A DNA stretch of 64,000 bases, from NCBI GenBank assembly GCA_013298775.1, contig JAAFIV010000015.1, positions 1 through 64,000 on the forward strand, written 5' to 3'. This stretch comes from Ignavibacteria bacterium (GTDB lineage Bacteria > Bacteroidota > Ignavibacteria > Kapaibacteriales > UBA4661). Shown piece after piece: positions 3,146 to 59,200 of this stretch. Position 1 is the first letter of the stretch. Each line of letters starts with the position of its first letter. Under the pieces are notes generated by a model. That model was not told where the DNA came from. It saw only the letters and a list, made by a program, of their open reading frames with translations, and made no database searches. Both the position numbers and the translations under genes were made by a program.

Positions 3146-3153
3146 GCAAGGTT

Positions 3154-3302
3154 TTAGTACGACAAAATCTTGGAAAAGCTGAATAAAATCAGGCTTCAGT
3201 GGCACGGACATTCTTGTCTGTGTTTTCCACCTGAAACCCGCTCCAACACTCACAGACAGGAATGTCTGTGCCACTACTGAAGATTTTTGCTATCGTACTG
3301 AG
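3154..3302. repeat. Family-1 hairpin element (copy A), with degenerate terminal inverted repeats
   Basis: agtggcacggacattcttgtctgtg...cacagacaggaatgtctgtgccact (3198-3275) flanked by tagtacgacaaaatctt / aagatttttgctatcgtactg. Confidence 0.85.
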
Positions 3303-3472
3303 GATTCCCAGATAAACCCTCCCCACCACACTTTTCAGCGTGATGTTGTTTGCCTTTTCGCTAATTTTGTACCTGCGCCACAATTTACAATGTTATTTCT
3401 TCGGAAACCCGTACACACTTGTTTTTGTGCCGTCTTCGCGCTATTTTCTTTTCACCACTCATTACTTTCATT

Positions 3473-13040: not shown

Positions 13041-13083
13041 GAGTACGAGAAAATAATGAAAAATGTAGCCCTCAGTTTGCATC

Positions 13084-13203
13084 TTCCCGTCCTACCGTTT
13101 CTGAACGGTAGAACGGGTTTCACGGTAACAGGGGTAAACGATTCCGGGAAACCCGCCGGACGGCAGCGTTCATGCACTCCTCAGCCGCCCGACGGGCAAG
13201 CGG
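13084..13203. repeat. Composite palindromic element: family 2 (cttcccgtcctaccgtttctgaacggtag...) fused to family 3 (cgccggacggcagcgttc..gccgcccgacggg)
   Basis: Left part matches 27510-27618 and 39169-39293; right part matches 23388-23442. Confidence 0.85.
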
Positions 13204-16809: not shown

Positions 16810-18012
16810 ATGCCAACAGACACACGTACAGATACACGGATTATCCTCTTCACAGGAAAAGGCGGCGTAGGCAAGACCACAACTGCTGCCGCAACCGCGC
16901 TGCGTTGCGCCGAAATGGGCAAAAAAACGCTGGTTATTTCCACCGACCCCGCACATAGTTTGGGCGATGCTGTTGATAGGGAATTGTCGCCCGAACCGCA
17001 GGAAATCGCGCCAAATCTGTATGCGCAGGAATTGGACGTGTATTATTCCATGAAAAAATATTGGGGGAATGTGCGGATTTTGCTCTTGCAAGTCTTTCAA
17101 TGGCAAGGGGTAAGCAATATGGTTGCTGAAGAATTGGCGGCACTTCCGGGCATGGAGGAAGCATCGGCGTTTTTGTGGTTGGATAATTATGTGCAGGCAA
17201 AGGAATACGACGTCATCATCATTGATAGCGCACCAACAGGCGAAACGCTGACGCTGCTCACCTTGCCGCAAACCGTGCAATGGTGGATGACGCGGGCGTT
17301 CCCCTTCCAAAAAACTGCGGTGCAGACGGTTGGTGCAATGGTGCGCGGACTCACGGGAATCCCGCTTGATAAGGGCTTTATGGAGCTGGATGAGCTTTTT
17401 AGTAAACTCCAGCGAATGCAGAAAACCATGACCAATCCTGATGTTGCGTCCATTCGCCTTGTGATGAATCCTGAGCGCATGGTTATTCAAGAGGCTCGGC
17501 GGGCGTACACGTATTTGCAGATGTACGGTTTTAATGTTGATGGCGTGGTTGTAAACCGCATCATGCCTGAATCGGGTAAGAAAGATTCGTTTTTCAAAAG
17601 CTATATCGAATCGCAGAAAAAATATCTGGTGGAGATTGAAGAATCTTTCGCGCCGCTCCCAAACTTTCGTGTCCAACACGCAGGACAAGAAGTCTTTGGG
17701 CTAGATTTGCTCAGGTCTATCGCCGAGAATTTGTACGGCGAAGTTGAAGGCGGCACCGACCCAACGACCTTCTTTTTCAAGGAAAAACCCTTTGAACTCG
17801 TGCAAGATGATAAAAACTACATTCTGAAAACAAAACTCCCTTTTGCCGAAGAATCGGACTTCGAGGTACGCCGCTTGTCGGATGAAATTATCATTCAACT
17901 TGGCAATCGCCGCAAGAATATCTTTTTACCACGTTTCTTGGCGTATTACACGCTTACAAGCAAGGTTTTATCGGGCGGGTGGCTGACGCTTACTTTTTCG
18001 CCGAATGCGTAA
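16810..18012 (+). CDS. ArsA/Get3-family ATPase with HSP20-like C-terminal domain
   Basis: FTGKGGVGKTTTAAATALRCAEMGKKTLVISTDPAHSLGDA; C-term KTKLPFAEESDFEVRRLSDEIIIQLGNRRKNIFLPRFL. Confidence 0.93.
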   Translation: MPTDTRTDTRIILFTGKGGVGKTTTAAATALRCAEMGKKTLVISTDPAHSLGDAVDRELSPEPQEIAPNLYAQELDVYYSMKKYWGNVRILLLQVFQWQGVSNMVAEELAALPGMEEASAFLWLDNYVQAKEYDVIIIDSAPTGETLTLLTLPQTVQWWMTRAFPFQKTAVQTVGAMVRGLTGIPLDKGFMELDELFSKLQRMQKTMTNPDVASIRLVMNPERMVIQEARRAYTYLQMYGFNVDGVVVNRIMPESGKKDSFFKSYIESQKKYLVEIEESFAPLPNFRVQHAGQEVFGLDLLRSIAENLYGEVEGGTDPTTFFFKEKPFELVQDDKNYILKTKLPFAEESDFEVRRLSDEIIIQLGNRRKNIFLPRFLAYYTLTSKVLSGGWLTLTFSPNA

Positions 18013-18044
18013 GAAATAGGAGAAAAAAAGTAGTTCAAGTCAAT

Positions 18045-18165
18045 AGTGGCACAGACATTCTTGTCTGTGTTTGTCGCCTGAACTCCGCACCAACACTCAC
18101 AGACAAGAATGTCTGTGCCACTGAAACCTGATTATACCAGCTTGTTAGAGATTTTGTCGTGTACA
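18045..18165. repeat. Family-1 hairpin element (copy B), right TIR attttgtcgtgtaca retained
   Basis: agtggcacagacattcttgtctgtg...cacagacaagaatgtctgtgccact. Confidence 0.85.
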
Positions 18166-18177
18166 AAGGCACAAAAT

Positions 18178-27502: not shown

Positions 27503-27509
27503 ACCCGCT

Positions 27510-27618
27510 CTTCCCGTCCTACGCTTTCTGAAGCGTAGAACGGGTTTCACGGTAATGCGTCTCTGTTTATTTACTCTGGGAAACCCGTTCTGCCGCGAAG
27601 AAGCGGTAGGACGGGAAG
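27510..27618. repeat. Family-2 palindromic element
   Basis: cttcccgtcctacgctttctgaagcgtagaacgggtttcacgg ... ctgggaaacccgttctgccgcgaagaagcggtaggacgggaag. Confidence 0.9.
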
Positions 27619-27731: not shown

Positions 27732-28226
27732 ATGAGCAAATCATCAAGGACATCCTCAAGCACCACCGATTCCCTCATCGGTTTGGAAGCACCGTCATTC
27801 AACGCCCCAACCGATTCTGGTGGGCAGATTTCCCTCGCAGATTTTCGCGGGAAAAATGTTGTGTTGTATTTTTATCCCAAAGATGATACAAGCGGCTGCA
27901 CAGCAGAAGCCTGCGACTTCCGCGACAATATGCAACGCCTCGCCAGCGCAGGTGCTGTCGTGCTTGGCGTAAGTCCCGATAGCCAGAAATCGCATGACAA
28001 ATTCAAGCAAAAATACGAGCTAAATTTTCCGCTCGTGAGCGATGAAGAGCGCACCATTGCTGAGGCGTATGGTGTTTGGGTGGAAAAATCTATGTACGGA
28101 CGGAAATACATGGGCGTTGAGCGCACTACGTTTCTCATCAATCCCGATGGCATTATCACCCATGAATGGCGTAAAGTCAAGGTTCCTGGACACGTAGATG
28201 ATGTATTGAAGGCATTGCAGAAATAA
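27732..28226 (+). CDS. bcp: Thioredoxin-dependent peroxiredoxin (Bcp/PrxQ)
   Basis: VVLYFYPKDDTSGCTAEACDFRDN. Confidence 0.95.
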   Translation: MSKSSRTSSSTTDSLIGLEAPSFNAPTDSGGQISLADFRGKNVVLYFYPKDDTSGCTAEACDFRDNMQRLASAGAVVLGVSPDSQKSHDKFKQKYELNFPLVSDEERTIAEAYGVWVEKSMYGRKYMGVERTTFLINPDGIITHEWRKVKVPGHVDDVLKALQK

Positions 28227-28232
28227 TTTGGT

Positions 28233-28399
28233 GAATCTTCCTCTGTACACGACAAAACTTTTTTCATAGTGGCTTGAGACTTCTTGTCTGTGAGTGTTGG
28301 TGCGGGGTTCAAGCAACGAACACAGACAAGAAGTCTCAAGCCACTGAAGACTGATTTAATGAGCTTTTCAGAGGTTTTGTCGTGTACAAAGGAATCTTC
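28233..28399. mobile_element. MITE-like element, family 1 copy D: ~19-bp TIR, 8-bp putative TSD (gaatcttc)
   Basis: TSD 28233-28240 / 28392-28399; TIR ctctgtacacgacaaaact / rc of right end ctttgtacacgacaaaacc; central hairpin agtggcttgagacttcttgtctgtg..cacagacaagaagtctcaagccact. Confidence 0.85.
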
Positions 28400-28403
28400 T
28401 CAT

Positions 28404-28447
28404 AAAAAACGGCGTAGCTCCAAATAAGGAACTACGCCGTTTTTTAT
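28404..28447. terminator. Bidirectional terminator between bcp and OMP gene
   Basis: aaaaaacggcgtagctcc ... ggaactacgccgttttttat. Confidence 0.9.
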
Positions 28448-33422: not shown

Positions 33423-33808
33423 CACTGGGATTTTTTTGGATGCGTGGGATTGCTGGGATTCTTGATTTTTTGTAGCTGGTCAGGTTTTTGAACACAGATT
33501 TCCATGATTCCCATGATGAAGAGGATTTCGGAATGGAGTAGTGAATCTTTTTTCTTTTTCTTCATCAGTGATAATCATGGTAATCAGGTTTTTGAACACA
33601 GATTTCCATGATTCCCATGATGAAGAGGATTTCGGAATGGAGTAGTGAATCTTTTTTCTTTTTCTTCATCAGTGATAATCATGGTAATCATGGTAATCTG
33701 TGTCAAAAAGTAAGACCCGACCACTTGCAATTTTTTCGAGATAAAAATTTGAGCGAAAACCAATGCCGAAAAATCCCAGCAATCCCAATAATCCTACAAA
33801 ATCCCAAT
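33423..33808. repeat. Nested palindromes: family-6 arms enclosing ctggtcaggt arms enclosing a family-5 hairpin with an internal 104-bp tandem duplication (33481-33584 / 33585-33688)
   Basis: Read directly: outer actgggattttt.. / ..aaaatcccaa; middle ttttttgtagctggtcaggt / agacccgaccacttgcaatttttt; inner acacagatttccatgattcccatgatg / catggtaatcatggtaatctgtgt. Confidence 0.9.
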
Positions 33809-35625: not shown

Positions 35626-35672
35626 ATCCATTAGGTATAGAAAATTTTGCAAACTTCATCAAACCAGGCTTC

Positions 35673-35751
35673 AGTGGCACAGACATTCTTGTCTGTGTTT
35701 ATCGCCTGAAAGACCGCACTAATACTCACAGACAGGAATGTCTGTGCCACT
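35673..35751. repeat. Family-1 hairpin element (copy E)
   Basis: agtggcacagacattcttgtctgtg...cacagacaggaatgtctgtgccact. Confidence 0.9.
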
Positions 35752-35781
35752 GTTGGTTGTCGCTATTTACAACGACAATCA

Positions 35782-39146: not shown

Positions 39147-39309
39147 TTGTAACTGGTCAGGTCTTGGTCTTCCCGTCCTGCCATTTCTTCATGGTAAAAC
39201 GGATTTCACGGTACTATTTACCGCGAAACCCATTACCGCGAAACCCATTACCGCGAAACCCGTTCTACGCTTTCCTAAACGTAGGACGGGAAGACCTGAC
39301 CAGTTACAA
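39147..39309. mobile_element. Family-2 element bounded by a perfect 17-bp inverted repeat (ttgtaactggtcaggtc / gacctgaccagttacaa)
   Basis: Inner palindrome 39169-39293 with three tandem taccgcgaaaccca units. Confidence 0.85.
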
Positions 39310-56058: not shown

Positions 56059-56134
56059 AATTACAAAAAATGTGCGAAAACAATACTCAAAACCTCTTCA
56101 CCTGGTAGAGCGAATTTTTCTAAAATTAGGCTTC

Positions 56135-56212
56135 AGTTGCACAGACATTCTTGTCTGTGTTCTCCATTTGAAACCCGCACCAACGCTCACAGATAAGAAT
56201 GTCTGTGCCACT
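56135..56212. repeat. Family-1 hairpin element (copy F)
   Basis: agttgcacagacattcttgtctgtg...cacagataagaatgtctgtgccact. Confidence 0.9.
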
Positions 56213-56229
56213 ATTGAAGATTTTTAAAA

Positions 56230-59200
56230 TCAACGATTATTCACCGCATTTTCCACCAAAATATTCACCGTGCGGCAGTAAAAACGCCCTTCTGGTGTGG
56301 TGTTGTCGTGCAGAAGCCCTTCGCTGCCGCGTCCTTCCACGAGAGCATCAGTGCGCTGCAAGGCAGTAGCGGCGGTGCTTGCGCGTTGGAGCGAGAGGGT
56401 TTTGTTGGTTTGTGCATTGCCTGTGCGGTCGGTGTAGCCAACCACCGTCACCCGCGAGCTAGGATTCATGCGCTGTTTCACAATTTCCAAAATGTTTTGA
56501 TGCTGCGTACCCACATCCGCTTTGTTGAAATCAAACAGTAGCAAACCAAAGGTGTTTACTTCTTTGTCGGCAGTTTTGGCAGCACGTTTTTTCGCAATGG
56601 AAATCACCTCGACGGGCAAGGATGCGCCCGCAACAACCGACGCGCCGCTTTCATCCTGCACACCCAGCGAATATTGCACAGGCAACGTGAGTTTTGGTGC
56701 GGTGTTGTTCTCGGTTGCAGTATTCCATTGTAAGCGGTCTTGGGGCTTTCCTGTACCAATAAATTCTTTCAAAAGCTGCGATTCGCGACGCGATTTCTGG
56801 CTTACAGTCATTTGCCATGCCGTGAGCGGAACTTGCGAAAGCGCGTTGGTGCGGAAGCGCACAAGAGGTGGAATCACGGCGCGAAGCGTGTCGCTCGCCA
56901 CAACAACATCGGTAATACTTGGCTCGGAAGCGAGAATTTCCACGCGACGATTTTCCGCAATGCCATCGGGAGTATTTTCACCGGACGGTTTTTCTGGTAA
57001 GCCGCGAAAGCTCGTTTTTATGCGGTCTTCAGCAATTCCCCAGACCTGTATCAAATACGATTTTATTGCTAAGGTTCGTGCTTCAGAGAGGCGTAATTCC
57101 TCACTGCTTGTAAAGCGCACCGTTGCTTGCGTTGCGTTCAGAGCCTGTATTGTGCTTGCCCCAGACTGCCCAGAAGCCTGATTACTGCTTGCATTTGAAC
57201 TATTTATTGTATTGACAGATGTCATACTTGCATTTGTTGTTCTGCCAGAAATTGGATTGCCTCCATTTGCTGCAAGAGCAGCATTGGTGCTGAAAGTAAA
57301 GGTTTTTGGTGCATACAAAAACTGCTCACTTGGGGTGAATTTTTCCTTCGTTGCTTTACAGCCAACAAGCGTAAGGGAAGCATTCGGGTTCGCTTTCATG
57401 CGGCTTCCGATAATATTCAACACATTGCGATACACTTCCAGCGTAGATTGATTGGAAAACTGTCGCTCGAACAAGGTTTTATCAGCATAGCGGCGGCTTT
57501 GTTCTTTGGATAACCGCGCATAGCGTGGCGGCAAAACGGCGGAGTTTTGCTCAAAAAATACATAGTTCAAAAGTGGGTGCATCGTGTTTGCGAGAAATTC
57601 CTCCACGCGCAGGGATTGTATCGGGTATTCAACGCTGTCTTTGCGAGCGGGATTGGGGTTCGGCTTCACGCCATACGCCTGAATATACGCCGAAAGCGTC
57701 GAGCCGCCTGTGCCGAAAAGCTGCACCGTTATTGGGCTACCCAAGCCATTGTACGCAATTTTCAACTGGCAGGATGTCCGCCCCGCGCTGGTGGGCTTGT
57801 AGCGCAAACGCAGCGACATAGCAGATTGCGGGTACAAAATATAGCTCGTATCGGTCTTGATTACTTGCGAAGTGTTACCCACAAGGCGAAAATCGCTAGT
57901 ATTCGGTCCAGCAAAAGCGAGGCTCGTAACCACGACAGGCTGCAAACTGACATTCCGTAGCACCGCCACGAGCGTATCTTTTTGCTGTTTGATTTTTACC
58001 TCCTCAAAATCAATCGTTTTGGTCAGCAACACAAGCAATGGTGCGGAACATGAGCCAATGATAGTTGCGCGAATGGTGTCGGATTGGGTGATAATCCGCA
58101 TCGTTGCTCGGCGTTCGCCCGTAGCGCGGGGTTTGAAGCGGAGTTCAAGGTTTCGTGCGCCTTTGGGAAGAATGACGCAGGGTGCGCCGCCCGCAACAAT
58201 GCTAAATTCCTCCGCGTGTTCGCCCACAAACTCAATTTTCTCAATTTTCAGCGAACTGCCGTCGTTGTTTCGCAAGAGTGCTGGAAAAAGCGAATCTTTT
58301 GCTTCGCCGCGCAAGCAACGTCCCATGTCCACATCCCGCACAGCGAGGCGCGGCGCGGTAATGCGAAAGGGTGCGGCGGATAGTGCTTCTTGAACAGCAG
58401 TGGTGTCGTTTTTCCATGTAAGCGGTGTGAGAACTGGTGTTCCGTCGGTGCGAGTGCTTGAGGTATAGTCAATTTTCCAAAATAATGCTTTACGTTCTGC
58501 ACCAACACTAGCAACGGTGCGCTTATCGCTAGAAACGCGCACATCCAGAACGGCTCCTGTGTGGCTTGTGAGGCGTTGTACGAGTGCGCCTGTTTCAACA
58601 TTCCACATCGTAAGGGTGCGGTCGTCGTTGCCAGTAATCACATGCAGCGAATCAAGGAATGATGCGGTGAGTATGGCAGTTTTTCCACCGAATTGGAAAC
58701 GTTTCCACTCGCCCGTGCGCCCATTCCATGCCCGCATGGTAGAATCAATCGAGCAGGTAACAATTGTGCCGCCATCGGGCGAAAAAAGACCAATATGTAC
58801 TAGTCCTTTGTGTCCCGACATTTTCTCCAAAAGTGTGCCTTTACGCGGGTCCCAGAGCCGTGCAACACCGTCTGCGCTCGTCGTGAGAAGGCGCATTCCG
58901 TCGGGCGAAAAAGCGAGGCTGAGAACGGCTTCTTTGTGTTCGAGTTTGTATAATTCTTCGCCAGATTTCACATCCCAAATCCGCGCAAGGCTGTCTGCAC
59001 CTGCTGTTGCGATGACGGTTGGGTCAGTGGGCGAGAACGCTGCATCAAAGACCTGTCCTGTGTGGCGCAAGGATTGGAGCGTTTCGGCACTTTCGGCAAT
59101 CCAAATTTTCGCCGTACTGTCTGCCGAAGCAGTAACCACACGGTTTCCATCAATGGAAAAGCGCACAGCGTAGATTTCCTCGATGTGGTCTAAATACACA

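Follow-up and report, generated by a model that had tools for sequence, protein, structure and literature searches.

ISAba1 is a member of the IS10 subgroup of the IS4 family. Elements of this subgroup are typically 1200–1350 bp long, possess CT ends and generate 9-bp direct repeats (De Palmenaer et al., 2008; PMC2266710, Table 1). Next to such insertion sequences (IS), bacterial genomes contain two types of small repeats which are relevant here, namely IS-derived MITEs such as MITEAba12 and QMITE2 (PMC10969869), and REPs and REPINs of the GTAG type, which are linked to RAYT proteins (PMC3733652; PMC3116915). REP dimers located within longer palindromes have been described for Anabaena variabilis and Halothiobacillus neapolitanus, and the passages of that report dealing with them name no transposase for these palindromes (PMC3733652). 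Furthermore, REPs are known to serve as targets of certain IS elements, among them ISRm22 of the IS4 family (PMC1525189). In this study, a short repeat element was analyzed that lies in a 64,000-nucleotide stretch of DNA from an Ignavibacteria bacterium (contig JAAFIV010000015.1, positions 1 to 64,000), hereafter called the window. The reading we favor for this element is that of a REPIN-like dimer inside an IS10-type MITE shell. To the overall reading, namely an IS10-type MITE whose ends would be recognized by a transposase of the type encoded on contig C14 of the same genome, which follows a 9-bp target-site duplication (TSD) rule and whose REP-dimer core was probably acquired in an ancestor of the genus, we assign a probability of roughly 0.88.

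The element downstream of bcp and the age of its insertion

The initial annotation described a MITE-like unit of 151 bp between direct gaatcttc repeats, and the sequence reads exactly so, with the unit at 28241–28391 and the two TSD copies, both read directly, at 28233–28240 (left) and 28392–28399 (right). Over 18 bp, its two termini are inverted copies of each other that differ at a single position (CTCTGTACACGACAAAAC / CTTTGTACACGACAAAAC), close to the length of about 19 bp previously given. The left terminal inverted repeat (TIR; CTCTGTACACGACAAAAC, 28241–28258, plus strand) has the same end as the IS on contig C14 described below, and its right counterpart (GTTTTGTCGTGTACAAAG) is found at 28374–28391 on the minus strand. 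Further inwards, two hairpin arms of 25 bp, as estimated before, pair perfectly. The left arm (28268–28292, plus strand) is a REP-like unit consisting of GTGG and a CTTGAGACTTCTTGTCTGTG variant, with 76% identity to the GTGG REP-like unit that served as reference in the window; it is followed by the spacer or loop of the REP-like dimer (28293–28320) and by the right arm, an inverted REP-like unit (28321–28345, minus strand). An Rfam search with the element yielded only sub-threshold chance matches, mostly to miRNA-type hairpins. By its structure, 28241–28391 is a complete, non-autonomous MITE of 151 bp with 18-bp imperfect TIRs, a status for which the support is as strong as sequence data by themselves permit.

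The insertion starts 14 bp past the stop codon (28226) of an ORF predicted to be bcp (peroxiredoxin; 27732–28226, plus strand; gene name taken from the initial annotation) and lies, as already recognized there, ahead of the palindromic bcp terminator (28404–28445). The latter was read by eye, with a simple scan scoring only part of it, and is intact although the insertion parts it from its gene. Two other kinds of repeats were observed in the window, a perfect 104-bp tandem duplication in the ATTTCCATGATTCCCATGATGAAG repeat family (33480–33687) and a further palindromic repeat family, TCTTCCCGTCCTACNNTTTCTGAANNGTAGAACGGG, at 13082–13128, 27509–27563 and 39168–39294.

A recent insertion had been considered probable for this copy. 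In the sister species G005 (contig C41) the terminator directly follows bcp, without the element and with one diverged copy of the target. Since the element is not present in the sister species, the insertion in the window is young. Similarly, the site orthologous to a second MITE copy (C56:101814–101960) is empty in G005, and a decayed copy at C34:182397 is common to both species. The three sites agree with what would be expected, namely that old insertions are shared and young ones private, and fixation of the same insertion in distant relatives was not found for the window copy.

Copy number, target sites and the probable partner IS

When used as BLAST query, the element produced 134 matches in its own genome, many of which stem from a palindromic copy being aligned twice, and a 14-base TIR motif allowing up to one mismatch was found 133 times, compared to a single occurrence of a reversed-pattern control. 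Both results place the family far beyond chance, with a number of copies on the order of a hundred. The genome-wide figures given here combine such searches with a sample of 864 kb (four further contigs plus the window), which contained 20 TIR pairs.

For determination of the TSD length, ends were paired in the retrieved loci and the flanks outside CTY...AAG were compared, with the element counted from CTY to AAG. At 9 bp, the flanks matched on average by 74% (29% in random pairings), and at least eight of the nine flank bases were identical in 36 of 54 TIR pairs, a few of which are alternative pairings of one element, compared to 0.7% for random pairing. In the same comparison of TIR-pair flanks no such signal was present at 8, 10, 11, and 12 bp. 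The TSD length of the family is 9 bp. The duplication of 8 bp initially reported is correct for the window copy but does not hold as a family rule, with copy L003 (10 bp) being another exception. Other copies with TIRs and flanking direct repeats, for which a search had been proposed, do exist in large number. The duplicated 9-mer favors G at its first and C at its last position, with T preceding and A following (T/G-N7-C/A, slashes marking the borders of the 9-mer); the preferred target is symmetric and GT-N9-AC-like. By a strict rule, five of 34 copies in this genome are located inside GTAG REPs, as is a sixth one (L030) when judged by eye, and all of them share one insertion position, GT/AGCRCAGAC/AC.

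Two ends lying farther apart pointed to a full-length IS with matching ends elsewhere in the genome, as had been suggested to look for (G000:C14:80601-81779; 1179 bp; ends CTATGTACACGACAAAA / CTTTGTACACGACAAAAC; end triplets CTA/CTT). It is flanked by the 9-bp TSD ggtacagac and contains a single intact ORF of 351 aa, the predicted product of which matches the IS4 family model NF033591 of NCBIfam (203 bits, cut-off 152) as well as the Pfam domain PF01609 (DDE_Tnp_1). The YREK motif of this putative transposase, Y-(2)-R-(3)-E-(6)-K, is complete (YQQRWTIETLFASLK at residue 249), and SLDRTEW at residue 91 and VADREFIG at residue 156 were found as further motifs. Many matches on plasmids carry an ISAba1 annotation; the transposase is about 37% identical to ISAba1 and about 41% identical to the plasmid sequence that matches best. 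Based on tblastn and family models, the IS would fit the IS10 subgroup of the IS4 family with respect to its CT ends, its 9-bp direct repeat and its approximate size, its length of 1179 bp lying slightly below the range of 1200–1350 bp (PMC2266710).

Relatives of this IS with the same type of ends are present in G004 and in another genus (G009), that of G009 with a 9-bp TSD. G009 additionally harbors a separate MITE family of about 120 bp (L190–L195) with GGTACACGACAAAA ends, 9-bp TSDs and a AACAAGGGAGCATGCTCCCTTGTT core, that is, the same end type as that of the window MITE, a different core and no REP. The genome studied here contains only one intact copy of the C14 IS and one further, broken match. 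Because of this single intact copy, it is the identity of the ends and of the TSD length that connects the MITE with the C14 transposase; similarity between both elements past the TIR is weak (27/33 over one end, mostly TIR). The C14 transposase is, as we infer, the mover of the window MITE. It would recognize the MITE ends and would insert the element at GT-N9-AC-like targets, duplicating 9 bp as a rule and 8 bp in the case of the window copy. Taken together, the family was found to be short, non-coding and multicopy with TIRs and a constant TSD, accompanied by an autonomous element with the same ends and by empty sites.

The palindromic structure could also be read as a folded regulatory or terminator element, or as an ordinary REP/REPIN maintained by selection on its RNA hairpin, with TSDs and TIRs being incidental. 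The predicted fold of the whole window element is indeed very stable (−80.0 kcal/mol), but strict pairing is not kept in the family, as many intact MITEs have mismatched arms (left ACAGACA vs. right GTCTCAA). Across the cores of the 864-kb sample the arms share 96% pairwise identity and the loop 65%, a difference that is biased upwards because the arms were the search pattern. Many cores have outlasted decayed or absent TIRs, so that the core may have a life or function of its own. Against the reading as an RNA element stand the 9-bp TSDs and exact ends throughout the family, the two empty orthologous sites, the IS with the same ends and the fact that the bcp terminator is a palindrome separate from the MITE. 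As a sole explanation, selection for an RNA hairpin is ruled out by TSDs and empty sites, and we regard this reading as highly improbable. Strict covariation of the arms was also considered as a sign of RNA function and was rejected on account of the many intact copies with mismatched arm modules (judged by eye).

The REP-like core and its other shells

An alignment of 42 copies revealed that the central arms come as two modules (GTGGCACAGACATTC... and GTGGCTTGAGACTTC...), which are often unequal between the two arms. The first module is a REP, composed of GTRG and CACAGACA-NTCT-TGTCTGTG. The window copy contains the second module in both arms, which represent the CTTGAGAC variant and are only 76% like the usual REP-like unit. 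Allowing up to two mismatches, the REP 22-mer was found at 674 places in the genome, first-module MITE arms included, and at none for the control. It is also abundant in G005, G001, G007, and G006, and absent or nearly absent in the other congeners. The 864-kb sample contained 189 REP units, with 48 head-to-head, 35 tail-to-tail and two head-to-tail dimers. The GTGG-TTCT type mainly forms head-to-head dimers with a spacing of 54 bp, and many tail-to-tail dimers are formed by the GTAG-CTCT type. Twelve of the 48 head-to-head dimers lie inside TIR pairs, others having decayed ends and still others being located in different shells. With a GTAG/GTGG tag, an imperfect palindrome in high copy number and inverted dimers, the core of the family has the features of REPs and REPINs. 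For the family, there is good support for its assignment as a putative REP dimer; for the diverged arms of the window copy, this support is less direct. Apparently, the core hairpin is not IS-derived; an origin from the IS was considered and rejected, as the subterminal similarity between MITE and IS is only weak.

In addition to shell A, the core dimer is present inside at least two other terminal shells (B and C), the ends of which are related to TTAGGAAKGSTAAAAAA or CTACATGATTTCAGTTGG. For this reason, not every such hairpin has moved as this MITE. The initial view that the family is transposed and not just folded DNA is borne out by TSDs, empty sites and the IS, but needs to be restricted in that the hairpin core is separable. 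The window itself contains a chimeric relative (18008–18168, minus strand), one half of which has a TGTACACGACAAAA end (18152–18165) and the other half of which is similar to shell B (TTAGGAAKGSTAAAAAA-type); the core they enclose is again the REP dimer. Moreover, it contains a decayed copy with intact core and two degenerate TIRs (3150–3305) and two REP-dimer cores of the MITE kind with unrecognizable TIRs (35640–35780 and 56100–56230). Shell A without the core was not seen in the 864-kb sample, and the only REP-free MITE with ends of this type came from the sister genus (G009).

Y1_Tnp (RAYT) genes flanked by the REP of the core are present in G005, G006, and G007. In the genome studied here, no RAYT with this REP as flank was detected, and a RAYT of its own as mover of the core's REP was rejected because both of its Y1_Tnp genes are bordered by other repeats. 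Three species carry a REP-flanked Y1/RAYT transposase domain at one common linker of the RecG helicase, where it continues the reading frame of recG (L216, G005:C139; L238, G006:C10:38500-41700; L211, G007:C58), and recG is uninterrupted in G001–G004. The recG of the genome studied here (L236, G000:C78:61200-63900) is without RAYT and has another in-frame palindromic insert (CCCTTCTCCCAGAGGGAGAAGGG...) at that linker.

It is conceivable that an imperfect palindrome within the MITE developed into the core hairpin and that the scattered REP units are fragments detached from MITEs and not the source of the core. Decay of a MITE to a bare core does occur, as some cores with unrecognizable TIRs retain degenerate shell-A flanks. 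Nevertheless, a population of its own is made up by GTAG-CTCT REPs occurring singly or as tail-to-tail dimers, and G001 and G007 are rich in the REP but have few TIRs. Shells B and C hold the same dimer, RAYT genes of three species are bordered by these REPs, and a MITE of the sister genus combines this end type with a core that is free of REPs. An origin of the REPs within the MITE is therefore improbable. According to the preferred reading of a REPIN-like dimer in an IS10-type shell, a GTRG-type REP head-to-head dimer forming a REPIN-like hairpin would have entered the shell in an ancestral member of the genus and would have been copied along with it ever since; this order of events is the one we infer. 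A more far-reaching and rather doubtful idea is that of a composite with two engines, in which a REPIN without its own RAYT in the genome persisted and spread by riding on DDE-transposon shells, and exchange at the common core gives rise to MITEs whose ends are newly combined, the chimera at 18008–18168 being an example. If this modular reading were true, a REPIN could outlive its RAYT and new MITE families could arise.

Comparison with known systems

In a little-studied lineage, to which Kapaibacterium and Ignavibacteria MAGs come closest among named records, a mobile element and its probable transposase were identified together. The element represents a clear case of two worlds of small repeats being joined, that of IS-derived MITEs and that of RAYT-driven REPINs. 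Similar to REP-targeting IS elements, especially ISRm22, some MITE copies are inserted at one fixed REP position; however, a TSD of 6 bp was reported for ISRm22 (PMC1525189) compared to 9 bp in the MITE family, and only a minority of MITE copies resides in REPs (5/34 by the strict rule). The C14 IS resembles the IS10 subgroup in its size of about 1.2 kb, its 5′-CT ends, its 9-bp direct repeats, its single transposase ORF, the complete YREK motif and the G and C bounding the duplicated 9-mer, and differs from the subgroup, ISAba1 included, by a TIR sequence of its own (CTWTGTACACGACAAAA; De Palmenaer et al., 2008; PMC2266710). Like IS-derived bacterial MITEs, the window MITE is shorter than 200 bp, non-coding and strongly folded, has TIRs, TSDs and ends shared with an IS, and exists in many copies, whereas its interior is a REP-like dimer and not recognizable IS sequence (PMC10969869). 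The REP of the core is like GTAG REPs and REPINs with RAYTs (PMC3733652; PMC3116915) in its GTRG tag and palindrome, its hundreds of copies, its head-to-head and tail-to-tail dimers and the REP-flanked RAYT genes in congeners, the difference being that many of the head-to-head dimers are here enclosed by the TIRs of a DDE-type element.
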